NCBI RefSeq assembly: GCF_030731045.1 | Contig: NZ_JAVALS010000006.1 | Coordinates: 124,001 to 188,000 of the forward strand | From: Arthrobacter horti | GTDB lineage: Bacteria > Actinomycetota > Actinomycetes > Actinomycetales > Micrococcaceae | Length of the DNA: 64,000 nt | Direction: 5' to 3' | Shown here: in pieces, positions 817 through 49,363 of the stretch | Position numbering within the stretch: the first letter of the stretch is position 1 | Layout of the letters: every line of letters starts with the position of its first letter | Made by a program: the position numbers and the translations under genes | Notes under the pieces: generated by a model | Databases searched by the model: none | What the model saw: only the letters and a program-made list of their open reading frames with translations | What the model was told of the DNA's origin: nothing

Positions 817-971
817 GATCCGCTGTGGCTGTCGCACACGGGCCGAGAGCGCTCCTGCTGCCCACTCACGTTCATTCGCACATCCGGGCATAAACCCGCG
901 GCGTAGGCTGGTTGCCACAGGTAACGACACGCACGGCACAGCTGACCCGGAAGCGAAGCGAACACCCGACA

Positions 972-2837
972 ATGGCGCAGACACAGAGCACCTTCCTCCA
1001 CGCACTCACACGCCTCTATCCCCATCTCAAGCCGATCATGCCCCGGCTGATCATGGGGTTCTTCTCAGCTCTCGGTGCCAGCATCGTGGCCTTGGCCGTC
1101 CCCCAGGTGCTCAAGGTCCTCATCAACGACTCGCTCCACCCCGGCGGCCCGTCCAGCGAGGTGTGGATCGCGGTCCTCGCCGTCCTGGGCCTCGGCATCC
1201 TGGAGGCCGGCCTGATCGCCCTCCGCCGGCAGTTCGTCATCAGCCCCGCCACCACGGTGGAGAACGGGCTCCGCGTCTCCCTCTACCGGCACCTGCAGGA
1301 CCTGGCCGTCGACTTCCACGACCGCTGGGGCTCCGGCCAGCTGCTCTCCCGCGCCATGGCGGATCTGAACTTCCTACGCCGCTGGATGGCCTTCGGCGCC
1401 ATCATGCTGATGGTCACCACCTTGACGGTGATCATCGGCGTCGCCCTCATGTTCAGCATGAGCTGGCAGCTGGCCCTCGTCTTCCTGGCCGCCGCCGTCC
1501 CCATCGTCGCCACCGGTACGCGCTTCCGCCGCAACTTCCTGAAGGTGGCCCGCCGCAGCCAGGACCAGGCCGGCGACCTGGCCACCGCCGTCGAGGAGTC
1601 CGTCCACGGCATCCGCGTCCTGAAGGCCTTCGGCCGCGGCCGCGAGGCCCTGGAGAGTTTCAACGCCCAGGCCGAGGAGCTCCGCGAAACGGAGATCCTC
1701 AAGGCCCGCCAGCTCGCCTTCTTCTCGCTCATCTCCACGCTGCTGCCGGAACTGGCTCTCGGCGTCGGGCTGGTCCTGGGCATCGCGCTCACCGCGAGCG
1801 GCCAGCTCAGCATCGGCGCGCTCGTGGCGTTCTTCGCCACGGCCGCCGTCGTCGCCGGCCCGGTGGAGGCCATCGGCATGCTGCTCTCCATGGCCCTGAC
1901 CGCCAAGTCCGCCATCGACCGCCACTTCGAGGTCATGGACACCCCGGTGACCATCGCGAGCCCGGAGCGCCCGGAGCGCCCGGAACGTCCGGCGCACCTC
2001 CGCGGCGCCCTGTCCTTCCGGAACGTCAGTTTCGCCTTCGCCGACGAGTTGGACAAGGACACCCCCCACTTCCTCCTGCGCGGCCTCGACCTGGACCTTC
2101 ACCCCGGCGAGACCATGGCCCTGGTGGGCGTCACCGGCTCCGGCAAGTCCGCCCTCCTCCAGCTGGTCCCCCGCCTCTACGAGGTCACCGAGGGCTCCAT
2201 CACCATCGACGGCCAGGACCTGCGCGGATTCGGCCTCGAGGAGCTGCGCCGCATCGTCTCGGTGGCCTTCGAGGACACCACCCTCTTCTCCAACTCGGTG
2301 CGGGACAACGTCCTCCTCGGCGCCCCCGCGGACGTCCTGGCCGATGAGGAACGCGCGACGGCGGCACTCGCGGAAGCGCTCGACGTCGCGCAGGCTCACT
2401 TCGCGCACTCCCTCCCGGACGGTCTGGACACCCGGATCGGCGAGGAGGGTCTGAGCCTGTCCGGCGGACAGCGTCAGCGCATCGCACTGGCCCGCGCCAT
2501 CGCGGCCCGGCCCAAGGTGCTGGTCCTGGACGATCCCCTGTCCGCCCTGGACGTGGCCACCGAGGAACTCGTGGAGACCCGGCTGCGGGAGGTCCTGCGG
2601 GACACCACCACCCTGATCGTGGCCCACCGTCCCTCCACCGTGGCCCTCGCCGACCGCGTGGCGCTGCTGCAGGACGGCCGGATCGCCGACGTCGGGACCC
2701 ACAGCGAACTGCTGGCCCGCAACGAGCACTACCGCTACGTCATCGCCAGCCTGGACACCGGGCCGGTGGACCTGGACAGCGAGCTGGAAGAGGAACGCGA
2801 GCTGGGGAACGAACTCGAGGACGAGGTGAACGCATGA
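972..2837 (+). CDS. ABC exporter half-transporter, degenerate-site subunit
   Basis: ABC transporter with fused membrane and ATPase domains, about 621 aa: six-helix membrane domain in the first ~320 residues, then the nucleotide-binding domain. Seen motifs: Walker A GVTGSGKS, canonical LSGGQ signature, H-loop IVAHRPSTV. The Walker B is [11 protein letters not shown], with Asp in place of the catalytic Glu, and the Q-loop Gln is Glu (AFEDTTLF). This is the pattern of the degenerate-site partner in heterodimeric exporters such as TM287/288 or Bmr[13 protein letters not shown] linker precedes the ATPase. An upstream in-frame TTG at 912 is possible, but ATG 972 gives the usual N-terminus. The stop overlaps the start of the next gene (ATGA). 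Substrate unknown; drug or lipid export is usual for the family. Confidence 0.9.
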
Positions 2838-4729
2838 GCGCCCGGAAGACACCCCAGCCGGCCACCGCACGACCCACCACCCCCGGCTTCGGCACCTCCA
2901 ACGAGGACGACTCCCGCCTGGCCAAAGCCGAAAGCCGCGCCGTCCGGGCGCGCTCACTGCGTCTCCTGGGCTCCCTCATCCACCCCATCCGGGTGCGCTT
3001 CTGGCTGACCGTGGCCATGGTGGTGGTATCCCAGGCCGCCCACGCCGCGGGTCCCGCGCTCATCGCCTTCGGCATCGACCGTGCGCTTCCCGCCCTGAGC
3101 CACGGCGACTCCGCGCCGCTGGTCCTGGCCGGCATCGGGTACCTGCTTGCCGCCGTCGTGACCGCGTGGCTGACCGCGATGTACGTGACCAGCACCGCCA
3201 AGCTGAGCCAGGCCATGCTCCTGGACCTGCGGCTGCGTGTCTTCCGGCACACCCAGCGACTGAGCCTGGAGTTCCATGAGAAGTACACGTCCGGCCGCAT
3301 CATCGCACGTCAGACCTCGGATCTGGAGGCGCTGCGCGAACTGCTGGACTCCGGCGTGAGCTCGCTCGCCGCGGGCCTGATGTTCATGCTGTTCACCGCC
3401 GTGACCGTGTTCGGCCTCGACTGGCAGAGTGGCCTCATCATGCTGGGCGCCGCCGTCCCCGCCGCGTTCCTGACCCGCTGGTACCAGATCCGTTCCCAGG
3501 TGGCGTACCGCGAGTCCCGCGTGGTTTCCGCCAGGATCATCGTCCACTTCGTGGAGACCATGACCGGCATCCGGGCCGTGAAAGCGTTCCGCAAGGAGGC
3601 CCGGAACACGCGCGAATACACGGATCTGTCCGAGAAGTATCGTCGCGTCACGGTCCGGTCCATCAATCTCAACGGCATCTACCTGCCTGCGCTCGTCCTG
3701 CTGGGCAATGTGACCGTGGCCGTGGTCCTGGCCGTGGCCGGGTTCCGGGTGCTGCATGGCGAACTGCCCGTCGGCGTGCTGCTGGCACTGGTCCTGTCCG
3801 TGAAGCGCTTCTTCCAGCCGGTGGACCAGATGGCCATGTTCTACAACTCGTTCCAGAGCGCCCAGGCCGCGCTGGAGAAGGTGTCCGGACTCCTTGAGGA
3901 GGTGCCGACCGTCCGGCCGCCCAAGGAACCCGTCCCCCTGCCCGAGGCACACGGCAGGATCGAGTTCCGGGACGTCGAGTTCCAATACGGCGACGGCCCC
4001 GTGGTGGTGCCCGAGCTCAACCTGACCATCCCGGCCGGCCAGACGGTGGCCCTGGTGGGGCAGACCGGCGCCGGCAAGTCCACACTGGCCAAGCTCATCG
4101 CCCGCTTCTACGACGTCAGCTCCGGTTCCCTCACGCTCGACGGCGTGGAACTCTCCCGCATCGCCACGCCCGAGCTGCGGCGCGCCGTCGTCATGGTCAC
4201 CCAGGAGGCGTTCCTGTTCAGCGGCAGCGTGGCGGACAACATCGCGCTCGGCCGCCCCGGAGCCAGCCGGGAGGAGATCGAGGCGGCGGCCCGTGCCGTC
4301 GGCGCCGACGCGTTCATCCGCGCCCTGCCGGACGGCTACGACACGGATGTGAACAAGCGCGGCGGCCGTGTCTCCGCAGGTCAGCGGCAGCTCATCAGCT
4401 TCGCCCGCGCCTTCCTGGCCAACCCGGCCGTACTCATCCTGGACGAGGCGACGTCCTCGCTCGACATCCCGAGCGAACGCCTGGTGCAGGAAGGCCTGGC
4501 GCGCCTGCTGGGCGGCGGCGCCGCTGATGCGCACGACGACGGCGCGCGGCAGGCTGAGCGGCGCACCGCCTTGATCATCGCCCACCGGCTGTCCACGGTG
4601 GAGATCGCGGACCGTGTGCTGGTGGTGCACGACGGCCGGGTGGTGGAGGACGGCACGCCGGAGGAGCTGATCCAGGGCGGCGGGCGCTTCGCGGCCCTGC
4701 ACGGGGCGTGGAAGGACTCGCTGGTCTGA
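2834..4729 (+). CDS. ABC exporter half-transporter, partner subunit
   Basis: Second half of the heterodimeric exporter, 631 aa, translationally coupled to the upstream half by a 4-bp overlap. The membrane domain covers roughly residues 50-340 and the ATPase domain follows. Walker [11 protein letters not shown]-loop VTQEAFLF, Walker [13 protein letters not shown] with the catalytic Glu, and H-loop IIAHRLSTV are all canonical. The signature is VSAGQ instead of LSGGQ. Together with the degenerate Walker B of the partner this predicts one active and one inactive ATP site in the dimer. An extra ~20-residue polar segment (around [14 protein letters not shown]) sits between Walker B and the H-loop. 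Role: export of an unknown substrate at the cytoplasmic membrane. Confidence 0.9.
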
Positions 4730-4997: not shown

Positions 4998-5285
4998 TCA
5001 GCGCAGATCGGACTCCCAGGTGGTGCCGAACGGCACGTCCTCGGAGAGCTCCACCACCACGGTGTCGTGGTCGAGCCGGGTGACCAGCACGCCGCAGAAC
5101 CGGCTGGTGGAGGTGGCGACGAAGATGGCCTCCTCCACGGCGCGGCTGATGCCGTCCTGGAGCGAGTCAGCGTCCCCGGCCGTCAGGCGGACCATGAAGG
5201 CGGAGTCGCCGTCGGCGTCGCTCCATGCGAAATCCGGGGTCGCGGGAAGGGTCTGGGGTGCGGTCAGGGTGTCACTGGCGTTCAA
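4998..5285 (-). CDS. Small acidic hypothetical protein, 95 aa
   Basis: Small soluble protein of unknown function. It starts with TTG at 5285 behind an AAGGA ribosome-binding site and ends beside its own hairpin terminator, so it looks like a real monocistronic gene. The sequence is acidic, without membrane segments or cysteine motifs apart from one Cys near the centre (SRFCGVLV). The middle part (AVEEAIFVATSTSRFCGVL) and the end (VPFGTTWESDLR) look like a compact alpha/beta fold, but I do not recognise a family. Confidence 0.7.
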   Translation of the reverse strand: MNASDTLTAPQTLPATPDFAWSDADGDSAFMVRLTAGDADSLQDGISRAVEEAIFVATSTSRFCGVLVTRLDHDTVVVELSEDVPFGTTWESDLR

Positions 5286-5500
5286 TCGTCAATCCTTGTC
5301 GGCTCTGGCCACGGATCCAGGGTGGATCCGAAAGTGGCGGTTAACATACTGGGAGCGCGAGTGAAGATATGGTATGCCAAAGCTGGCCATTAATGCACGT
5401 ACCAAACCGTCCGGCCGGTTTACGACTGAGCAACATCCGGTTTCCCGGGATGAAATCCTAACCCACCGTCACGAGGACCCTCCAGGCCCGGAGACGACTG

Positions 5501-5529
5501 AAGGCCGGCGCCACAGGGGCGCCGGCCTT
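5501..5529 (-). terminator. Terminator of the repeat-peptide gene
   Basis: 12-bp inverted repeat AAGGCCGGCGCC / GGCGCCGGCCTT with a 5-nt loop, 25 bases after the stop codon of the peptide gene. There is no T-run, as is common in actinobacteria. Confidence 0.7.
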
Positions 5530-5554
5530 CAGGATGGAATGGATCCGCTGGGAT

Positions 5555-5758
5555 TCAGGAGGGGTCAGGCCAGTTGCCGACGGCCTGGATGCTGGCGGTG
5601 TGAACGCTGCTGGGGTCAGGCCAGTTGCCCACCGCCTGCAGGGTGTGGCTCGAGGAAGGGTCGGGCCAGTTGCCGACAGCGCTGACTGCCGGAGCACTCA
5701 GAGCACCCAGGCCCAAGGCCGCGATCAGCGCGGCGCCTGCTGCGAGTTTCTTAAACAT
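5555..5758 (-). CDS. Secreted peptide precursor with three VGNWPDPS repeats, 67 aa
   Basis: Tiny exported precursor. Residues 1-27 are a classical signal peptide (MFKK, a hydrophobic Ala/Leu/Gly core, then SAPAVSA as a signal-peptidase-I site). The mature part, only 40 residues, contains VGNWPDPS three times (residues 28-35, 43-50, 60-67), each preceded by Ala and separated by short spacers SSHTLQA and SVHTASIQA; the last copy is the C-terminus. This architecture resembles multicopy pheromone precursors. The start ATG 5758 follows a GGAAG ribosome-binding site; an in-frame start at 5812 would put 18 polar residues before the signal peptide and is rejected. The gene is divergent from an XRE-TPR regulator. 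Secretion and repeats are seen; a signalling role is inference, alternatives being an antimicrobial or structural peptide. Confidence 0.82.
   Translation of the reverse strand: MFKKLAAGAALIAALGLGALSAPAVSAVGNWPDPSSSHTLQAVGNWPDPSSVHTASIQAVGNWPDPS
5558..5677 (-). repeat. Three direct repeats encoding VGNWPDPS
   Basis: 24-nt units at 5654-5677, 5609-5632 and 5558-5581. They are nearly identical at DNA level (core GGCAACTGGCC), separated by 21 and 27 nt in frame. Spacer lengths differ by whole codons, so copy number could expand or contract by recombination. Confidence 0.9.
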
Positions 5759-5847
5759 GTTCTGCTCTTCCGTCCGGTGGTGGGTGATGCACGACGGCGG
5801 CGAGGCCGCCACCGCTTCAACAGCGAACTGTCATCGAATTTCAGGAC

Positions 5848-5866
5848 ACGGGGAATGAAACCCCGT
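5848..5866. promoter_or_regulatory. Inverted repeat in the peptide-gene leader
   Basis: ACGGGG-N7-CCCCGT lies between the likely minus-strand promoter and the peptide start codon. It could be an operator or a leader-RNA hairpin. Function not shown. Confidence 0.4.
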
Positions 5867-5867
5867 A

Positions 5868-5907
5868 TTGACAGACATTGTAAAGTAGGCACAAGCGAGA
5901 ATGTCAA
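5868..5907 (-). promoter_or_regulatory. Promoter/operator region between peptide gene and XRE-TPR gene
   Basis: Reading the minus strand, TTGACA (5907-5902) is followed by TACAAT (5882-5877) at 19-bp spacing, or TTTACA at 17 bp, a good sigma-70-type promoter for the peptide gene. The same segment is bounded by inverted repeats TTGACA (5868-5873)/TGTCAA (5902-5907) and GACATT (5874-5879)/AATGTC (5900-5905), so a dimeric regulator such as the adjacent XRE protein could bind over the promoter. Confidence 0.5.
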
Positions 5908-5948
5908 GGTTTTGGCATTCACAAACCGCCAAAGCTTGAGGAGGGGCA

Positions 5949-7208
5949 ATGGGCAGCGGATTCGGGGAGCGACTCCGGGCTGAACGCCTGGAACGTGGGA
6001 TGACACAGGCTGAACTGGGAAAGGACCTGTATTCACCCAGTTATATCTCCCTTCTGGAGACGGGCCGCCGGGAACCCACCCGGGATGTCATCCAGGAGCT
6101 CGCGCGACGCCTTGAACTGGCCCCCAAGGCGTTGGAGGAATGGAATAACCGAGTCACACAGAACGACGCAGATTACGTCCTCGCCGCCCTGTACGCCCGC
6201 CAGGCGTGGGATCTCCGTGACTACGACCTGGCCGCCCAGCACGCCGCGGAGGCCGCCCGGATCGCCCTGGACGCCAAGAACATCAGCGCCTGGTGGAACA
6301 TGCGGTACATGCAGGCCGAGTGCCTGCTCAAGCAGGGCAAGTACTCCGAATGCCAGGGGGTCGTGGAGCAGCTGGTGGAACACCGCCTGGCCGTGGAGAG
6401 CGCCGGGCTGGGCGTCCGGGCCCGCCAGATGCTGGCTGCCGTGTGCCACGGCCAGGGCCGCCTGGCCGACGCCGTCGAACACGCCCGTGAAGCCGTGGCC
6501 CTTGGCGCGCAGCTGCCCAAGGACTCCCCCATTTACTCCAGCGCACTGCGCATCTACATCGGCGCCCTCGCCGAGACGGGCCGTGTCGAGGAGGCCTGGG
6601 AGGCCTGCAAGATCCTGCAGAAGGAGGTCGGCTCCAGCTCCGTGGACCACCTGGCCGGCATCGTGGCCTGGGTGATCGGCAACGTGGCCTTCATGCGCCA
6701 CGACTACGAGGAGGGTGTGGCCCAGCACGAACGGGCCGCCAAACTCCTCTCCCCCGGCAATGACATCGAGCAGTGGGCCAACTTCAATAAGGCCTCCGCC
6801 GCCATGCGCCTGAACTCCGGGATCGTGGAGGACTCCACCCTGGCCGCCCTGGAACGGGCCGAGCTGGCCCATACGATCGTCAACGGCACCGTCCGTGACG
6901 GCCTGGAGCTGCGCTTCATCCGCGCCAAGTGGCTCTACCTCAACGACGAACTCCCCGCCGCGATCGCCATGCTCCGCGAGGTGATCGCCCAGGAGGACGA
7001 ACTCGGCATGCACGTCGCCGCGGAAGTCCACCTGCTCCTCGGCAAAGCCCTCAAGGCCACTGACGAGCTGCAGGAGGCCATGGCCTTCCTGTCCCGGGCC
7101 CAGCACCTCTTCGCCTCGGCCGGGGCCTCCGAAGGCATCCAGCAGGCCATGGACGCCATGCTGGAGATCCGCCTCGCCGAACGTCGCGCCAAGGCCGGCA
7201 GCACCTAG
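5949..7208 (+). CDS. XRE-family regulator with C-terminal TPR domain (RRNPP-like), 419 aa
   Basis: Two-part regulator. Residues ~5-60 are an XRE helix-turn-helix (FGERLRAERLERGMTQAELG, then SPSYISLLETGRREP). The remaining ~350 residues are helical with repeated alanine-rich TPR-like pairs (LAAQHAAEAARIALDAKN, AVEHAREAVALG and others), the architecture of PlcR, Rgg, PrgX and AimR, in which the TPR superhelix binds a short exported and re-imported peptide. Start ATG 5949 has a strong GAGGAGGGG ribosome-binding site. It is divergent from the repeat-peptide gene, with 190 bp between the start codons. Peptide binding is inference: the domain order and neighbour support it, but RRNPP systems are best known from Firmicutes. 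It could instead be a regulator with no peptide ligand. Confidence 0.88.
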   Translation: MGSGFGERLRAERLERGMTQAELGKDLYSPSYISLLETGRREPTRDVIQELARRLELAPKALEEWNNRVTQNDADYVLAALYARQAWDLRDYDLAAQHAAEAARIALDAKNISAWWNMRYMQAECLLKQGKYSECQGVVEQLVEHRLAVESAGLGVRARQMLAAVCHGQGRLADAVEHAREAVALGAQLPKDSPIYSSALRIYIGALAETGRVEEAWEACKILQKEVGSSSVDHLAGIVAWVIGNVAFMRHDYEEGVAQHERAAKLLSPGNDIEQWANFNKASAAMRLNSGIVEDSTLAALERAELAHTIVNGTVRDGLELRFIRAKWLYLNDELPAAIAMLREVIAQEDELGMHVAAEVHLLLGKALKATDELQEAMAFLSRAQHLFASAGASEGIQQAMDAMLEIRLAERRAKAGST

Positions 7209-7216
7209 GACATACA

Positions 7217-7260
7217 AAGGGGCCCGACGGCGGTACGCACGTACCGCCGTCGGGCCCCTT
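7217..7260. terminator. Bidirectional terminator between XRE-TPR gene and purC
   Basis: Perfect 21-bp inverted repeat (AAGGGGCCCGACGGCGGTACG and complement) with a minimal loop, between two convergent genes. Confidence 0.9.
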
Positions 7261-7287
7261 GGCGCGCTGTGGACGCAGGCCGAAAGG

Positions 7288-8199
7288 CTAGGCGCCAAAG
7301 CTGCGGCCGGTCAGCCGCTCGTAGGCCTCCACGTACCGGGACCGGGTCTTCTCGATGACCTCGGCCGGCAGGGCCGGCGGCGGGACGTCGGAGTTCTTGT
7401 CCCAGCCGGACTCGGCGGAGGTCAGCCAGTCGCGCACGAACTGCTTGTCGAAGCTGTCCTGGGCCTTGCCCGGCTCATACTCCAGGGCGTCCCAGAAACG
7501 GGAGGAGTCCGGGGTCAGGACCTCGTCACCCAGGGTGATGACACCCGTGGCGGGATCGGTGCCGAACTCCACCTTGGTGTCCGCCAGGATGATGCCGCGT
7601 TCACGGGCGATCTCCTCGGCGCGGGTGTACACCTGCAGCGTCAGCTCGCGGAGGCGGTCCGCCACATCGGGGCCCACCGTGGCGACGACGGCCTCGAAGG
7701 TGATGTTCTCGTCGTGCTCGCCCACCTCGGCCTTGGCGGACGGGGTGAAGATGGCGGGCTCCAGGCGGGAGCCGTCCACCAGGCCCTCCGGCAGCGGCAG
7801 CGAACAGACGGTGCGGGACTCGCGGTACTCGGCCAGGCCGGAACCGGTCAGATAGCCGCGCGCGATGCACTCCACCGGGAACATCTCCAGGCGCTTGCAC
7901 AGCATGGCCCGGCCCTCCACCTCGGCGGGGACACCCTCGGCCACCGTGGAGCCCAGCACGTGGTGCTCCACGCCGAGCTGCTCGAACCACCACAGGCTCA
8001 GCTGTGTGAGAACGGCGCCCTTGTCCGGGATGGTGGACTCCAGAACGTGGTCGTAGGCGCTGATGCGGTCGCTCGCCACCACCAGAACGCGGTCCGTGGC
8101 GGCATCCGGGCCGGTGGGCTCGTAGAGATCACGCACCTTGCCGGAGTAGATGTGACGGTATCCCGGAAGGTCCAGGACCTCGGTCTTCAGCCCGCTCAT
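7288..8199 (-). CDS. purC: SAICAR synthase
   Basis: Phosphoribosylaminoimidazole-succinocarboxamide synthase, 303 aa, joins CAIR and aspartate using ATP in de novo purine synthesis (cytosol). Seen family motifs: SGKVRDLYE near the N-terminus (phosphate-binding loop), ASDRISAYDHVL, PDKGAVLTQLS, MFPVECIARGYLTGSG, DTKVEFG and LGDEVLTPDSSRFW. Length is normal for actinobacterial PurC. Its ATG overlaps the purD stop by 4 bases, so it is translated with purD. Purine synthesis here sits 44 kb from the purine degradation cluster of the same window. Confidence 0.98.
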   Translation of the reverse strand: MSGLKTEVLDLPGYRHIYSGKVRDLYEPTGPDAATDRVLVVASDRISAYDHVLESTIPDKGAVLTQLSLWWFEQLGVEHHVLGSTVAEGVPAEVEGRAMLCKRLEMFPVECIARGYLTGSGLAEYRESRTVCSLPLPEGLVDGSRLEPAIFTPSAKAEVGEHDENITFEAVVATVGPDVADRLRELTLQVYTRAEEIARERGIILADTKVEFGTDPATGVITLGDEVLTPDSSRFWDALEYEPGKAQDSFDKQFVRDWLTSAESGWDKNSDVPPPALPAEVIEKTRSRYVEAYERLTGRSFGA

Positions 8200-9524
8200 G
8201 CCTGTGCCTCCTCTGCTGCCGCGGGACGGGCAGGCGTGCGGCGGGACTCCACCACGATCTCGCCGCGCGCCGCCTTGGCGGCGATGTCGCTGCGGTACTG
8301 GCCGCCGTCGAGCTCGATCAGTTCCATGCCCTCATAGGCGCGCTCCCGCGCCTCCACCAGATCGTCGCCGAGCGCGACGACGGCCAGCACGCGGCCGCCC
8401 GTGGCGATCACCTTGCCGTCCTCGTCCAGCGAGGTCCCGGCGTGGATGACGTGGACGTTCTGGACCGCATTGGCCTTCTTCAGGCCGCGGATCCGGTCGC
8501 CCTTGCGCGGGGTGTCCGGGTAGTTCTCGGCCGCCAGGACCACGCAGACGGCGCTCTCACGGGCCCAGCGGAGCTCCTCGGCCTTATCCAGCTCGCCCTT
8601 GGCCGCGGCCATCAGAAGACCGCCGAGCGGGGTCTTGAGGCGTGCCAGCACGGCCTGCGTCTCCGGGTCGCCGAAGCGTGCGTTGAATTCGATGACGCGC
8701 AGACCGCGCGAGGTGAGCGCCAGCCCGCAGAAGAGCACACCGATGAAGGGCGTGCCGCGGTGCGCCATCTCATCCACGGTGGGCTGTGCGACGCGCTCGA
8801 TGACCTCGGCCACGAGGTCCTCCGGGGCCCAGTCGAGAGGGCTGTACGCACCCATCCCGCCCGTGTTGGGGCCCTCGTCATTGTCGAAGATGCGCTTGAA
8901 GTCCTGCGCCGGGGCGAGGGGAACGGTGGTCTTGCCGTCGCAGAGGACGAACAGGGAGACCTCAGGACCGTCCAGGTACTCCTCGATCACCACGGTACCG
9001 CCGGCCTCGAAGCAGCTCTGCGCGTGAGCCAGGGCCTCGTCCCGGTCGGAGGTGACCACCACGCCCTTGCCGGCGGCCAGGCCGTCGTCCTTCACCACGT
9101 AGGGGGCGCCGAAGGTGTCCAGCGCATCGGCGGCCTCGGAGGCGTTGACGGCCACCTTGGCCAGGGCGGTCGGCACGCCGGCCTCCGCCATGATCTGCTT
9201 GGCGAACGCCTTGGAGGCCTCGAGCTGCGCGGCCTCCTTTCCGGGGCCGAAGACCGGGAAGCCGGCCTCCCGCAGGGCGTCGGAGACACCTGCGGCCAGG
9301 GGGGCTTCGGGACCGACGACGACGAGGTCTGCCTCCAGCTTCACCGCGAGGGCCGTGGCGGCCGCGGGGCTGTTGGCATCCACCGCGTGGCAGGGCACCA
9401 GCTGGGCGATCCCGGCGTTGCCCGGGGCCGCGTGGACCTCGGTCACCTGGGGGTCGGAGAGGAGGGAACGGACAATGGCGTGTTCGCGGCCACCCGGGCC
9501 AAGGACGAGAACCTTCACAGTCAT
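8196..9524 (-). CDS. purD: Phosphoribosylamine--glycine ligase
   Basis: GAR synthetase, 442 aa, ATP-grasp enzyme that joins phosphoribosylamine with glycine, second step of purine synthesis. Seen motifs: N-terminal LGPGGREHAIV, GPEAPLAAGV, GPGKEAAQLEASKAFAK, ATP-grasp VVKDDGLAAGKGVVV, the signature DNDEGPNTGGMGAYSP and EFNARFGDPETQ. The start was placed at ATG 9524 (MTVKVLVLG); the frame is open farther upstream but that stretch runs into palindrome B. The stop overlaps purC (ATGA), giving a purD-purC operon. Confidence 0.97.
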   Translation of the reverse strand: MTVKVLVLGPGGREHAIVRSLLSDPQVTEVHAAPGNAGIAQLVPCHAVDANSPAAATALAVKLEADLVVVGPEAPLAAGVSDALREAGFPVFGPGKEAAQLEASKAFAKQIMAEAGVPTALAKVAVNASEAADALDTFGAPYVVKDDGLAAGKGVVVTSDRDEALAHAQSCFEAGGTVVIEEYLDGPEVSLFVLCDGKTTVPLAPAQDFKRIFDNDEGPNTGGMGAYSPLDWAPEDLVAEVIERVAQPTVDEMAHRGTPFIGVLFCGLALTSRGLRVIEFNARFGDPETQAVLARLKTPLGGLLMAAAKGELDKAEELRWARESAVCVVLAAENYPDTPRKGDRIRGLKKANAVQNVHVIHAGTSLDEDGKVIATGGRVLAVVALGDDLVEARERAYEGMELIELDGGQYRSDIAAKAARGEIVVESRRTPARPAAAEEAQA

Positions 9525-9578
9525 CAAGGGTACTGGGCGGCCGTGACAGCCGCCCAGCCGGGCGGCTCGCGTGACGGC

Positions 9579-9647
9579 GGCCGTTGAGTGCTCAGTAGTG
9601 GCGGGTTCCCGGCCGCAACACCCGCCACTACTGAGCACTCAACGGCC
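9579..9647. repeat. Long intergenic palindrome B (28-bp arms, 13-nt loop)
   Basis: Perfect 28-bp arms at 9579-9606 and 9620-9647 around the loop TCCCGGCCGCAAC. It lies between two divergent starts (purD and the asparaginase gene), so it cannot be an ordinary terminator for either. The loop agrees at 9 of 13 positions with that of palindrome D at 21326, although the stems differ. Confidence 0.85.
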
Positions 9648-36471: not shown

Positions 36472-38052
36472 TCAGCCCACCCGGACGTTGAAGAAGGACA
36501 TCGGAGTGGCAGCCCAGTCGAAGGTGATGCCCTTCAGGTCCTTGCGGTACCCGACCGGGAAGGACACCTGGTACATGTTCGCGGTCACGGAGTCGGCGGC
36601 GACGTCGCTCTCGACCTGCTTGTACAGATCGCAGCGCTTGGCTTCATCGGGCTGAGTGCGGGCCTGGGCCAGGAGGGAGTCGACCTTCGGGTTGGTGTAG
36701 GCACCCTTGTTGGTGATGCCGATGCTCTTGGAGTTGTACAGCTTGTCCAGGGCGGCACCGGGGTCCGGGCTCATGATGTAGTCGTTCAGCAGCATCATCG
36801 ACGGGATGGTGGACGGGCTGGAGAGCGTCTTCAGGTAGTCCGGGAAAGCGATGGGCACCAGGTTGACGTTGACTCCCAGGTCCTTGAGGTTGGACTGGAA
36901 GAGCGTGGCCAGCTGGGTCTGGACGGAATCCACGGACTGGTAGCGGAGCTCCAGGGTCTGGTTGCCGAGGCCGGCGAGCAGCTGCTTGGCCTGGGCGGTG
37001 TCCTGGGCCGAGGGGGCGGACCCGTCAGGACGGCAGGTGAACGAGTCGGAGATGACGCCGGAGGCGATCGATCCGTTGCCGTTCTCGATCTTGGCGTAGC
37101 CGCCGGCGTAGTCGAAGGCGAGCTTGAGGCCCTGACGGATCTTGGGATCCGCAGTGGCTCCCGTGGACGTGTTGAAGAACACCTGGGTCAGACCGGAGGT
37201 CTTGAGGAAGGCGACGTCCACGCCCGGCTGGCCCTTGATGGCGGCGGCGTCGATCGCGGAGATGCCCAGGGCGATGTCGACGTTGCCGGCCTTGAGCTCG
37301 TCACGCTCGGTGGCGCTCTCATCGATGCGGCGGAAGGTCATCTGCGTGGGCCGCTTGTCGTCGAAACCCCAGTACTTGTCGTACCGGGTGACGGCGGTGC
37401 CGTCCGCGGTGGAGGTGCCGGTGCCGACGAATGGGCCGGTGCCGGCTTCGTGGGACTGCAGCCAGCCCTGGCCGTCATCCTTGCCGGCGTTCTTGGTGAC
37501 CAGGTCGGCCTCCATGACGTAAACGTTGGCGAGGCCGTTGATGAAGAAGGCGTTGGGGGCCTTCAGATTGATCACCACGTGCTTGTCATCCACCACGGTG
37601 GTGGAGTCGTAGCCCTGGAGCTGGGAGGCGATGCCCTGGCCCAGTCGGACGTAGCGGTCCAGGCTGAACTTGACGTCCTTGGCGGTCATGGTGGTGCCGT
37701 CGTGGAAGGTGACGCCGTCACGCAGGGTGAAAGCGATGGACTTGGCATCCGGGGCCACCTTGAACTCGGTGGCCAGCGCGCCGACCATCTTGTTCTGGGC
37801 ATCGAACTTGATGAGGGGTTCGTAGACGATGTTGTCCACCATGTTCGTCTGTGCGTAGTCGGCGCGCAGCGGGTCCATGGTGTTGAACTCGTGCTTGAAG
37901 GCCACGACGATCGCGTTCGAGCCGCCGCTGGCGTTGCCGCCACCGCCGCCCGCGCCACCGGCGGTGCAAGCGGTCAGCATCGAGGCGACAAGCGGAACGG
38001 TCAGGATGGCCGCACGCGTGGTGGGCCGGAAGTGACGGATGTTGAAAGACAT
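36472..38052 (-). CDS. Family-5 solute-binding lipoprotein (module 1)
   Basis: 526-aa extracellular binding protein of the peptide/nickel/opine class (SBP_bac_5). Lipoprotein signal: SMLTAC lipobox, followed by a Gly/Ser-rich linker. The typical TLRDGVTFHDGTTMTAKDVKFSLDRY stretch (in parts) is seen, and WLQSHEAGTGPF marks the family. Sequence order parallels the module 2 protein at 47810. Ligand unknown. Preceded by AGGAG at 38052. Confidence 0.92.
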   Translation of the reverse strand: MSFNIRHFRPTTRAAILTVPLVASMLTACTAGGAGGGGGNASGGSNAIVVAFKHEFNTMDPLRADYAQTNMVDNIVYEPLIKFDAQNKMVGALATEFKVAPDAKSIAFTLRDGVTFHDGTTMTAKDVKFSLDRYVRLGQGIASQLQGYDSTTVVDDKHVVINLKAPNAFFINGLANVYVMEADLVTKNAGKDDGQGWLQSHEAGTGPFVGTGTSTADGTAVTRYDKYWGFDDKRPTQMTFRRIDESATERDELKAGNVDIALGISAIDAAAIKGQPGVDVAFLKTSGLTQVFFNTSTGATADPKIRQGLKLAFDYAGGYAKIENGNGSIASGVISDSFTCRPDGSAPSAQDTAQAKQLLAGLGNQTLELRYQSVDSVQTQLATLFQSNLKDLGVNVNLVPIAFPDYLKTLSSPSTIPSMMLLNDYIMSPDPGAALDKLYNSKSIGITNKGAYTNPKVDSLLAQARTQPDEAKRCDLYKQVESDVAADSVTANMYQVSFPVGYRKDLKGITFDWAATPMSFFNVRVG

Positions 38053-47809: not shown

Positions 47810-49363
47810 TTATCCGACGCGCAGATCGGCGACACGGATCGGGCGGGCGTCCGGGTTGAGGCGGACGCCGGTGAGGCCGTCACGGTAGCCGACGATCGCG
47901 TCCACGGTCAGCAGGTTGAGCACGGGACGGTCCTGGAGGATCTGCGTCTCGGCCTTCGTGTAGAGGGCGCAGCGTGCCGTGGCGTCCGCGGTCTTGGAGG
48001 CCTGGTCCAGCGTGGTGTCCACCGTCGGGTTGCTGTAGGCGCTGCGGTTGGTGGTGCCGATCTTGGACGTCGTGTACTGCTGGAGCAGCGCGGCGCCGGG
48101 CTCCGGCATCGGGACGCCTTCCAGGGCGAGCATCATCTGCGGGACCGTCTTGGGATCGCTCAGCTTGGCCAGGTAGTCCGGGAAGCCGATGGGAACCAGA
48201 TCCAGCTGGACGCCGATCTCACGCAGGTTCGATTGCATGAGGGTGGCGATGTCCTGGTCCAGGGGCACCACGGGCTGGAAGTTCAGCGTCAGCTTGGTGA
48301 CGCCGGCCTCCGACATGAGCTGCTTGGCCTTGGCCAGGTCCTGCTGGTGCTCGCCGCCGTCGGGCATGCACGGCAGGGTGTTGGGCAGCAGGCCCTTGGA
48401 GACCTGGCCGTGGCCCTTGCGGATGTTCTGCAGGGCGCCCTTGTAGTCGAAGGCCAGCTGCAGTGCCTCGCGGACCCGGGGGTCGGCGGTGGGGCCGTTC
48501 TGGTAGTTCAGGTAGATGTAATCGGAGCTCGGCGCGGTCAGGCTGTCCACCTTGACCTTGGTGCCCTTGAGGGCGTCCGCATCGGCCGCGTTGAGGCCGA
48601 AGGCGACGTCGATGCTGCCGTCCAGGAGGGACTGCTTCTCCGTGGCGCTCTGGTCGATGCGCTTGAAGGTGATGCCGCCGGCGCGCTTGGCGTCGAACTG
48701 CCAGTAGTCCGGGAAGCGCTTGAGGACGATGTCCCCGGAGGTCTGCTTCTTGTCCAGGGAGAAGGGGCCGGTGCCGGCGTCGTGGCTCTGCAGCCAGGCC
48801 TGGGCGTGGTCCGCGGCCTCGTTGGGCTTGACCGTCTTCTCAGAGACGATGTAAACGAGGGAGAGCCAGTCGAGGAAGATGGCGTCCGGCTTGGTGAGGT
48901 TGACCGTGAAGGTGCTGTCGTCCTTGATGTCCACCGACTTGTAGGAGCCGAGGTAGCCGGCCACACCGCTGCCCACAGCGCGGTAACGCTCGATCGAGTA
49001 CTTCACGTCCTCCGAGGTCAGCGGGGAGCCGTCGTGGAACTTGACCCCCTTGCGCAGGGTGAAGGTGATGGACTTGGCGTCCGGCGCCACGGTGTAGGTC
49101 TCCGCGAGCTGGCCGCTGAGCTTGTTGGTGTCGTCATAGGCCACCAGCGTGTCGTACATGTTCTGGATGACGTACCCGGTCTGGGTGCGGGTGGCCACCG
49201 GGTCCAGCGTGTCGAGCTGGCCGAAGTACGCCACCACCAAGGACGTCTTGGAGGCATCCGCGGAGCCGCCGGCGTTCTGGGATCCGCCGGAGCAGGCGCT
49301 CATGGCGGCCATGGTACTGAGGGAGAGTGCGAGGACCGTGGCGGTCTTGAGGAACTTGGGCAC
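47810..49363 (-). CDS. Family-5 solute-binding lipoprotein (module 2)
   Basis: 517-aa SBP_bac_5 lipoprotein. The signal peptide begins PKFLKTATVLALSL and ends with lipobox MSAC. The block TLRKGVKFHDGSPLTSEDVKYSIERY (in parts) parallels the module 1 protein, and WLQSHDAGTGPF matches it closely. Start GTG 49363 follows TAGGAG; the frame is open far into the amidohydrolase gene and that longer version is rejected. Probably delivers the substrate to the permease pair at 46769/45870. Confidence 0.9.
   Translation of the reverse strand: MPKFLKTATVLALSLSTMAAMSACSGGSQNAGGSADASKTSLVVAYFGQLDTLDPVATRTQTGYVIQNMYDTLVAYDDTNKLSGQLAETYTVAPDAKSITFTLRKGVKFHDGSPLTSEDVKYSIERYRAVGSGVAGYLGSYKSVDIKDDSTFTVNLTKPDAIFLDWLSLVYIVSEKTVKPNEAADHAQAWLQSHDAGTGPFSLDKKQTSGDIVLKRFPDYWQFDAKRAGGITFKRIDQSATEKQSLLDGSIDVAFGLNAADADALKGTKVKVDSLTAPSSDYIYLNYQNGPTADPRVREALQLAFDYKGALQNIRKGHGQVSKGLLPNTLPCMPDGGEHQQDLAKAKQLMSEAGVTKLTLNFQPVVPLDQDIATLMQSNLREIGVQLDLVPIGFPDYLAKLSDPKTVPQMMLALEGVPMPEPGAALLQQYTTSKIGTTNRSAYSNPTVDTTLDQASKTADATARCALYTKAETQILQDRPVLNLLTVDAIVGYRDGLTGVRLNPDARPIRVADLRVG

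Follow-up and report, generated by a model that had tools for sequence, protein, structure and literature searches.

A candidate peptide pheromone and its divergent XRE-TPR receptor in Arthrobacter horti, with relatives elsewhere in Actinobacteria

The described systems closest in plan to the locus studied here are the RRNPP systems of Firmicutes, which are recognized by a propeptide of 10–100 amino acids (aa), export of this propeptide by Sec or in some cases by PptAB, a receptor of 250–500 aa, the presence of TPRs in the receptor, and adjacency of the two genes (PMC10075063). The survey that gives this signature covered complete Firmicutes genomes plus viruses only, and it describes actinobacterial signals as typically small molecules (PMC10075063); the available part of a review of actinobacterial quorum sensing names no system of this kind (PMC4748050). 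We analyzed a stretch of 64,000 nucleotides from Arthrobacter horti (contig NZ_JAVALS010000006.1, positions 124,001 to 188,000; here called the window), in which a gene for a small precursor with a repeated Trp-Pro (W-P) core lies divergent from a gene for an XRE-TPR protein. From the comparison of sequences and predicted folds we put the probability at roughly 0.8 that the peptide acts as a pheromone and the XRE-TPR protein as its receptor in the cytoplasm, in the manner of the RRNPP systems. Linkage, co-divergence and the predicted fold support the earlier, sequence-only reading of the locus as a multicopy secreted peptide signal with an RRNPP-like receptor; the competence role which that reading also suggested has been dropped, as we found no evidence for or against it.

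The precursor begins with a basic segment (MFKK) followed by a hydrophobic stretch, and cleavage is likely after AVSA, leaving 40 aa. VGNWPDPS directly follows the likely cleavage point and is present three times, each copy being preceded by Ala and the last one forming the C-terminus; translation of the open reading frame (ORF) and the repeat coordinates thus confirm the signal peptide and triple repeat that had been claimed from the sequence alone. The program-made ORF list has a longer GTG start at 5812 (85 aa), but the ATG, which by eye has GGAAGAGCAGAAC in front of it, looks the better start. No AAYTGGCCNGAYCC sites were found in the own genome (completeness 93.85%) beyond the three copies in the window, and the reversed control gave 0. 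The receptor gene is divergent at a distance of exactly 190 base pairs (bp), and its product scored above the Pfam cut-offs (bits, cut-off in brackets) with HTH_31 at 44.3 (27), HTH_3 at 42.1 (23), TPR_19 at 30.1 (25) and TPR_14 at 28.6 (23.5), so that the claimed XRE + TPR protein and its 190-bp spacing also stand.

The pair shows four of the five features used by RRNPP_detector: (i) the precursor has 67 aa in the window and 58–98 aa in 69 relatives, (ii) the receptor has 419 aa, and relatives consisting of TPRs only have 342–374 aa, (iii) TPR_19 and TPR_14 exceed their cut-offs and the structure model agrees, and (iv) the genes are adjacent, both in the window and in 69 of 70 named loci. For export by Sec, the remaining feature, there is a signal-peptide pattern under a simple hydropathy rule, some family members being without a leader.

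The named loci come from a genome scan with the receptor, which gave 70 loci in genomes titled Arthrobacter, Paenarthrobacter, Pseudarthrobacter or Sinomonas. A GNWPDP precursor is divergent from the receptor gene in all except L078, a 52% relative. One, two, three, four, five and six copies of GNWPDP were present in 1, 29, 13, 22, 3 and 1 loci, respectively; L059 has a single intact copy plus one decayed copy, and L018 has mostly GIWPDP in place of GNWPDP. The precursor ends one residue past the last copy in 59 of the 69 relatives, the hydropathy rule finds a signal peptide in 69/69, and three other genomes of the genus of the window have four copies with different spacers. When 245 genomes of the family were drawn and the counts tallied by hand from the receptor and motif tables, all 36 genomes of three genera (g1, g7 and g10) had both the receptor (≥64% identity) and the DNA motif, and of the remaining 209 only 17 had any motif match, one or two scattered ones each; the reversed control pattern matched 4/245 genomes. 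In 216 motif copies from 72 loci the third codon positions are free (Gly C141/T60/A10/G5; first Pro C83/G74/T58/A1; Asp C112/T104). Invariance of the first two positions is a consequence of how the copies were found, and it is the free third positions that are informative; judged from these codons, conservation of the motif is at the protein level. Because the neighborhood of ABC, purC and purD genes is itself kept in 66–67 of the 70 named loci, the adjacency in this close group could reflect general synteny.

The evidence from more distant receptors is of another kind. We examined 85 entries, which were chosen from search lists and not at random, and which include some loci fetched twice (e.g. 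L078 and L148). A Sec-type W-P precursor was found at 45 of them (28/28 TPR-only and 17/57 XRE-type), a leaderless W-P ORF at seven, and a doubtful ORF at one (L216; GTG start, internal DWP), leaving 32 with neither. The distant XRE-TPR receptors have approximately 35–53% identity, and the repeat of the divergent Sec precursor is altered yet recognizable with W-P kept: GNWPDS/G/A (L135), VGIWPNS (L136), VGNWPDA six times (L137), FVGNWPDAV five and four times (L138 and L139), WIWPDS/A (L140), GIWPDS (L141), TGNWPN four times (L142), VGEWPH (L150), VGNWPDR five times (L168), and VGDWPH or VGNWPH in six to eight copies (L153, L154, L188). The precursors facing the TPR-only receptors have endings such as SIGWWPN, RVNNWPY, LVNWWPH, RVGYWPF, LIDDWPH and GIWPY, and 25 of the 28 terminate one residue after W-P.

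The peptide letters were then mapped on a tree of 63 receptors (L216 was dropped, and L181, L206, L148, L152 and L199 were left out because of wrong automatic frames; L170 and L171 have very long branches). The residue before W changed 17 times, vs a mean of 28.3 and a minimum of 24 in 300 shuffles, and the residue after P 20 times, vs 32.0 and 27. Without the close group the values were 17 vs 27.1 (minimum 23) and 20 vs 29.1 (24). The residue two before W was less telling, with 8 changes vs a mean of 11.6, a number that shuffles without the close group also reached (11.5, minimum 8). On this sequence comparison, receptor and repeat change together wherever a distant relative has a precursor, as the sequence-only reading had proposed to check; this shows that the peptide letters follow receptor descent, which alone does not prove contact. 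In a control where signal-peptide ORFs were defined as ATG-started, 35–170 aa long, and W-P was counted after residue 20, 42 of 43 distinct signal-peptide ORFs divergent from distant receptors contained W-P. The control windows gave W-P in 4/17 ORFs, two of these being neighboring W-P systems.

The TPR-only receptors lie in gene contexts that differ from that of the window pair, so their adjacency to the precursors cannot stem from purC/ABC synteny. Their neighbors include GGDEF-EAL genes (Pfam: L203, L208, L210, L214), a GT2 gene (Pfam: L207) and, by eye, gltX-like ORFs. Such GT2 and GGDEF-EAL neighbors would also suit a small, divergently regulated peptide with a structural role at the surface or in biofilms, and so would a resemblance of the leader region to rodlin that is weak and below threshold (E 0.016, 15.1 bits vs a cut-off of 75). 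The position of the motif at the very end of 25/28 TPR-only partners and the variation from one to six copies within the close group speak against a structural peptide, which we regard as scarcely likely. On gene context, these neighbors suggest that TPR-only members may act via cyclic-di-GMP or exopolysaccharide and not on DNA.

Some arrangements recur around the TPR-only genes. In L210, L214 and L219–L222 two ORFs come after the receptor, first a small one (tested in L210 only: DUF7793) and then a larger one (tested in L210 and L214 only: GGDEF-EAL in both); all of these loci except L221 also have a large ORF upstream of the pair, which is a GAF-domain histidine kinase in L210 and L214. In L204, L207, L212, L213, L217 and L218 a long ORF with the C-terminus LYHGDRRLNRD lies no more than a few kb from the receptor; the sole one tested, that of L207, is a GT2 glycosyltransferase, and the function is possibly exopolysaccharide synthesis. 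L200 and L213 hold tandem TPR-only receptor–peptide pairs with unlike cores (LIDDWPH + VGNWPG and MIDNWPN + VGNWPD, respectively), which form a natural specificity series.

The AlphaFold model of the window receptor (mean predicted local distance difference test, pLDDT, 89.6; predicted template modeling score, pTM, 0.77) folds as a TPR superhelix. The same was found for the TPR-only relative L172 (pLDDT 92.5, pTM 0.85), which has no Pfam TPR family above cut-off. Rap, NprR, AimR and PlcR are among the matches: for the window receptor the VIA Z scores were 24.4 with Rap (root mean square deviation 4.6, 338 aligned), 23.0 with NprR (4.5, 331) and 20.9 with AimR (5.6, 294), and Foldseek matched the PlcR-PapR-DNA complex with E 6.3e-6. 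With L172, LGN was the top match (VIA Z 26.9) and Rap-CSF scored 20.0. The residues invariant in 61/61 receptors, with and without XRE, include W241, N245, H260, W276, N280, R287 and W328 (L170 and L171 were excluded from this count because of their very long branches). N245 and N280 are 35 residues apart and occupy the equivalent place on successive repeats. In RRNPP receptors, paired asparagines touch the peptide backbone.

A further conserved element lies between the two genes. The sequence TTGACA-N28-TGTCAA is found within 300 bp before the receptor gene in 71 of 73 close loci, and with identical spacing in the distant XRE-type loci L135, L136, L140, L141 and L142; the inverted repeats earlier noticed in the promoter region have thus resolved into one conserved 40-bp element. 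None of 26 TPR-only loci has it, as expected because these proteins lack the helix-turn-helix domain. At up to three mismatches there was one site per genome in 9/9 genomes, and the reversed control gave 0. The simplest reading of these sequences is that the receptor acts on one operator at its own locus, and direct targets elsewhere, if any, would have a different site. On the minus strand the element reads, by eye, TTGACA-N17-TTTACA, which could be the peptide promoter; a consensus promoter scan gave no sigma-70-like site in 5400–7400.

Relatives were also found outside the family of the window. At the level of the order, the close-group profile found matches at 1e-40 in 17/297 genomes. Of these, 15 belong to the window's family and two to another (f17), in which the ORFs divergent from the receptor encode three copies of PTVGGSWPT (L170) and a C-terminal MSDTWPA (L171). 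At the level of the class, 38/394 genomes matched a wider profile at 1e-25. Among the 27 class-level loci that were read (L226–L252), ten have a Sec W-P ORF within 1 kb and two have weaker leaderless ones (L234, L236). One of the ten, L240, is oriented like the receptor gene, L227 and L170 are one and the same locus, and several have GTG or TTG starts. The peptides include VDIEWPNP..VDIEWPVV (L230), GDISWP/DDISWP three times (L241), and the C-termini TLDWPWI (L233) and LNWPKCC (L231). Divergent Sec peptides ending in CC occur with or without W-P (LNWPKCC, DWPVMCC, GIGNTCC, PPTCC and VDMCC in L231, L242, L244, L248 and L252), and these perhaps constitute a cysteine branch of the family, judged from their endings. 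A receptor like that of L241 is present on 36 plasmid records (35 Streptomyces, 1 Kitasatospora). Seven plasmid loci, from 12 of the 36 records listed, were examined and a W-P ORF was found in four. In L270 (NZ_CP108701.1) an ATP-grasp gene adjoins a gene that is annotated as hypothetical and encodes a Sec precursor with three copies of DIGWP; the leaderless ORFs of L266, L268 and L269 end in DIGWPKH, DIGWPKR and DIDWP, near a FAD monooxygenase gene, ketosynthase and non-ribosomal peptide synthetase genes, or a condensation-domain gene. Viral contigs gave eight stretches matching a pattern, none being a relative, phage records gave no match at 1e-10, and plasmids searched with the window receptor gave none at 1e-15; on these negative searches, nothing indicates that the close group came from a mobile element.

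Several observations weigh against the reading as a pheromone with its receptor. The fold is one: VIA Z was higher with the unrelated APPBP2 (28.1) and MalT (26.8) than with Rap, and TPR folds are generic, APPBP2, MalT, LGN and subunits of the APC/C scoring at least as high as Rap. Since unrelated TPR proteins score as high, the fold fits a peptide-binding TPR superhelix without singling out RRNPP. The sequence profile matches PlcR and Lmo0325 in the HTH part alone, and the likeness of the TPR part is common to unrelated TPR proteins; we rate the system as one that probably works like RRNPP and that may or may not share descent with a known Firmicutes receptor family along the TPR part. Many receptors also lack a visible partner: 32/57 distant XRE-type entries have no W-P peptide within the 700–900 bp searched, all 32 partnerless entries being XRE-type; 15/27 class-level loci had none within 1 kb, and the plasmid loci L267, L271 and L272 had none either. 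The partnerless distant receptors may be orphans, may have partners elsewhere, or may have another role. In addition, W-P is not confined to the divergent ORFs, as it occurs in 12/84 distinct signal-peptide ORFs elsewhere in the loci (1/84 in the last ten residues); the 40-bp element is present in only 5/17 of the distant XRE-type loci that have a Sec precursor; a single site per genome in nine genomes, at up to three mismatches, gives no sign of a wider regulon; and the signal peptides were called with our own hydropathy rule. The sequence-only reading had named absent synteny, the lack of a TPR fold and loss of the repeat beside a retained regulator as outcomes that would count against it. 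Synteny is present and the model is a TPR superhelix; the repeat is retained throughout the close group, and it is among the distant XRE-type receptors that the regulator is often found without it.

The leaderless ORFs raise the question of where the peptide acts. Orphan leaderless mini-ORFs encoding MSSIGNWPDPM, MNRIGNWPDPM and others occur in close-group genomes (Arthrobacter/Sinomonas-type), and the seven receptors with a leaderless partner face ORFs ending in, e.g., QVGDWPD or GGIGDWPHA[AD]. The lack of a signal peptide in some of the orphans counts against a purely exported signal, as export may not always be needed or may be non-Sec; by analogy, leaderless members could be exported otherwise, in the manner in which short hydrophobic peptides (SHPs) are exported by PptAB (PMC10075063), or could act inside the cell. 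Taken further, the peptide might be a cytoplasmic self-signal or co-factor that is never exported and reimported, the leader of most precursors limiting its level. The orphans, the leaderless divergent ORFs at 7/39 receptor entries without a Sec W-P precursor and an ORF ending DDDIDWP on a Streptomyces plasmid fit such a role, but a signal peptide, which an internal ligand would not need, is predicted for every close-group precursor, and we consider the intracellular explanation unlikely. With exchange between cells as the preferred reading, the occurrence of both Sec-led and leaderless precursors means that the same code may serve between and inside cells.

Two further observations concern the orphans. 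In L115, L120, L121, L124, L127, L130 and L133 the leaderless ORF follows a gene ending in FDPGSSPD, FDPGSTPD or similar (VDPGSSPD in L115, FDPGSTPG in L130), and this shared C-terminus could itself be a signal. The orphan ORFs of L120 and L121 mix IGNWPDPM with IGWWPDLM or IGWWPNAT, like the precursors facing TPR-only receptors, and from these letters a cross-signal between the two receptor classes is possible.

Features of the window locus. Positions are those of the window; a point marks features without a strand.
Feature	Position	Strand	Basis or remark
W-P peptide precursor, 67 aa	5555–5758	−	ATG start at 5758, stop (5555–5557) included; product MFKKLAAGAALIAALGLGALSAPAVSA + VGNWPDPSSSHTLQAVGNWPDPSSVHTASIQAVGNWPDPS
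Signal-peptide part MFKKLAAGAALIAALGLGALSAPAVSA	5678–5758	−	read from sequence
VGNWPDPS copy 1, first residues past likely cleavage	5654–5677	−	direct repeat family D1
VGNWPDPS copy 2	5609–5632	−	direct repeat
VGNWPDPS copy 3, C-terminus	5558–5581	−	direct repeat
40-bp element TTGACA-N28-TGTCAA, likely operator and peptide promoter	5868–5907	.	conservation before receptor
XRE-TPR receptor/regulator, 419 aa	5949–7208	+	Pfam; AlphaFold model, pLDDT 89.6
Helix-turn-helix (HTH) domain, residues 5–65	5961–6143	+	Pfam HTH_31; PDB profile match to PlcR 2qfc at residues 4–57
TPR superhelix, residues 71–417	6159–7199	+	model; W241/N245 and W276/N280 invariant, one repeat apart
Perfect 15-bp hairpin just past peptide gene, possible terminator	5498–5532	−	inverted repeat I3; absent from terminator-scan list
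21-bp hairpin between receptor and purC, possible two-way terminator	7217–7260	.	inverted repeat I1; absent from terminator-scan list
Two adjacent ABC exporter-type genes (membrane + ATPase)	912–4729	+	Pfam; conserved neighbors
purC and purD, conserved neighbors	7288–9638	−	Pfam; 66/70 named loci each

The two hairpins flank the pair, so the peptide and receptor genes may be two single-gene units. Beyond them, the ABC exporter-type genes are kept in 67 and 66 of the 70 named loci, a tRNA-Pro gene also neighbors the locus, and a 95-aa ORF at 4998–5285 had no Pfam match. Repeated cores behind a leader with an ABC exporter pair next door are also what would be seen if the product were a secreted antimicrobial or modified peptide, i.e. 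a multi-core ribosomally synthesized and post-translationally modified peptide (RiPP), and the XRE-TPR protein merely a local regulator. No RiPP modifying enzyme was found among the Pfam-tested neighbors (the two ABC exporters, purC and purD). Furthermore, the core pairs with TPR proteins in other contexts and changes in step with them, which a product directed at another target would not explain, and we hold the RiPP alternative to be very improbable.

From the gene pair, its adjacency, the conserved repeat, the co-divergence, the conserved unique site and the predicted fold, we infer export, processing, uptake, binding and regulation at the 40-bp site, as follows. The precursor would be exported by Sec, and proteases would cut several short peptides out of each molecule, all sharing the core (V/I)GNWPDP(x). 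An oligopeptide permease could take these up; the own genome has 11 SBP_bac_5 genes, a possible means of oligopeptide uptake. The peptides would bind the concave face of the TPR superhelix, and binding would alter the action of the XRE dimer on the single TTGACA-N28-TGTCAA site, activating or repressing the peptide gene and perhaps the receptor's own gene. Two of the SBP_bac_5 oligopeptide-binding genes are in the window itself (36727–37791 and 48068–49120, minus strand).

In a wider sense, we think it fairly probable that Actinobacteria share a large peptide signaling family with a Trp-Pro core, in which TPR receptors are of at least two kinds, XRE-TPR receptors with an operator at their own locus or, on Streptomyces plasmids, with biosynthetic genes next to them, and TPR-only receptors linked to genes for cyclic-di-GMP and exopolysaccharide, and in which precursors have one to eight copies and are Sec-led or leaderless. 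By sequence this family of pairs is large and apparently undescribed. We found no paper on such a system in the open-licence PubMed Central literature, nor the strings NWPDPS, GNWPDP, GDIGWP, IGWWPN, VNNWPY, VGDWPH and DIEWP in the papers searched, in line with the earlier statement that no named actinobacterial system of this kind with this peptide is known; a description elsewhere is possible.

If correct, the proposal means that a phylum which includes major soil bacteria and antibiotic producers also communicates by peptides, with a pair fitting the RRNPP signature in the Arthrobacter-type family and relatives in Streptomyces and in a second family of the same order. Since the genome sequence gives the peptide letters directly, synthetic peptides could be tried immediately, and peptides that have changed together with their receptors form natural pairs for the study of specificity. 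Where TPR-only receptors lie beside GGDEF-EAL genes, control of cyclic-di-GMP by a peptide could be tested directly, and the pairs on Streptomyces plasmids would give access to biosynthetic genes.

Of the known systems, PlcR-PapR of the Bacillus cereus group has the same plan, i.e. an N-terminal XRE-type HTH with a TPR superhelix and a small precursor encoded next to it, and PlcR was matched in its HTH part by the sequence profile (2qfc, E 4.8e-6; no match beyond the HTH) as well as by Foldseek (3u3w, E 6.3e-6). The identity is, however, 15% in the Foldseek alignment, and the present system is actinobacterial with a W-P core in up to six copies in the close group. PlcR controls a many-gene regulon, whereas the window system has a single 40-bp site per genome. 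Rap-Phr of Bacillus and its phages likewise combines a TPR receptor lacking a DNA-binding domain with a small precursor, and Rap gave VIA Z 24 with the window receptor and 19–20 with the TPR-only model. Rap acts as a phosphatase; the actinobacterial TPR-only receptors have approximately 342–374 aa and some lie beside GGDEF-EAL or GT2 genes. ComR-XIP and Rgg-SHP of streptococci have receptors of the same general plan, and leaderless short precursors like theirs occur here too, but the peptide and receptor sequences differ, the close group is Sec-led, and no competence link was seen. AimR-AimP of arbitrium phages also pairs a TPR receptor with a short peptide (VIA Z 20–21) and differs in that the actinobacterial family had no relative in the viral contigs or phage records searched. 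Finally, gamma-butyrolactone signaling of Streptomyces is, like the system proposed here, actinobacterial cell–cell signaling, but its signal is an enzyme-made small molecule.

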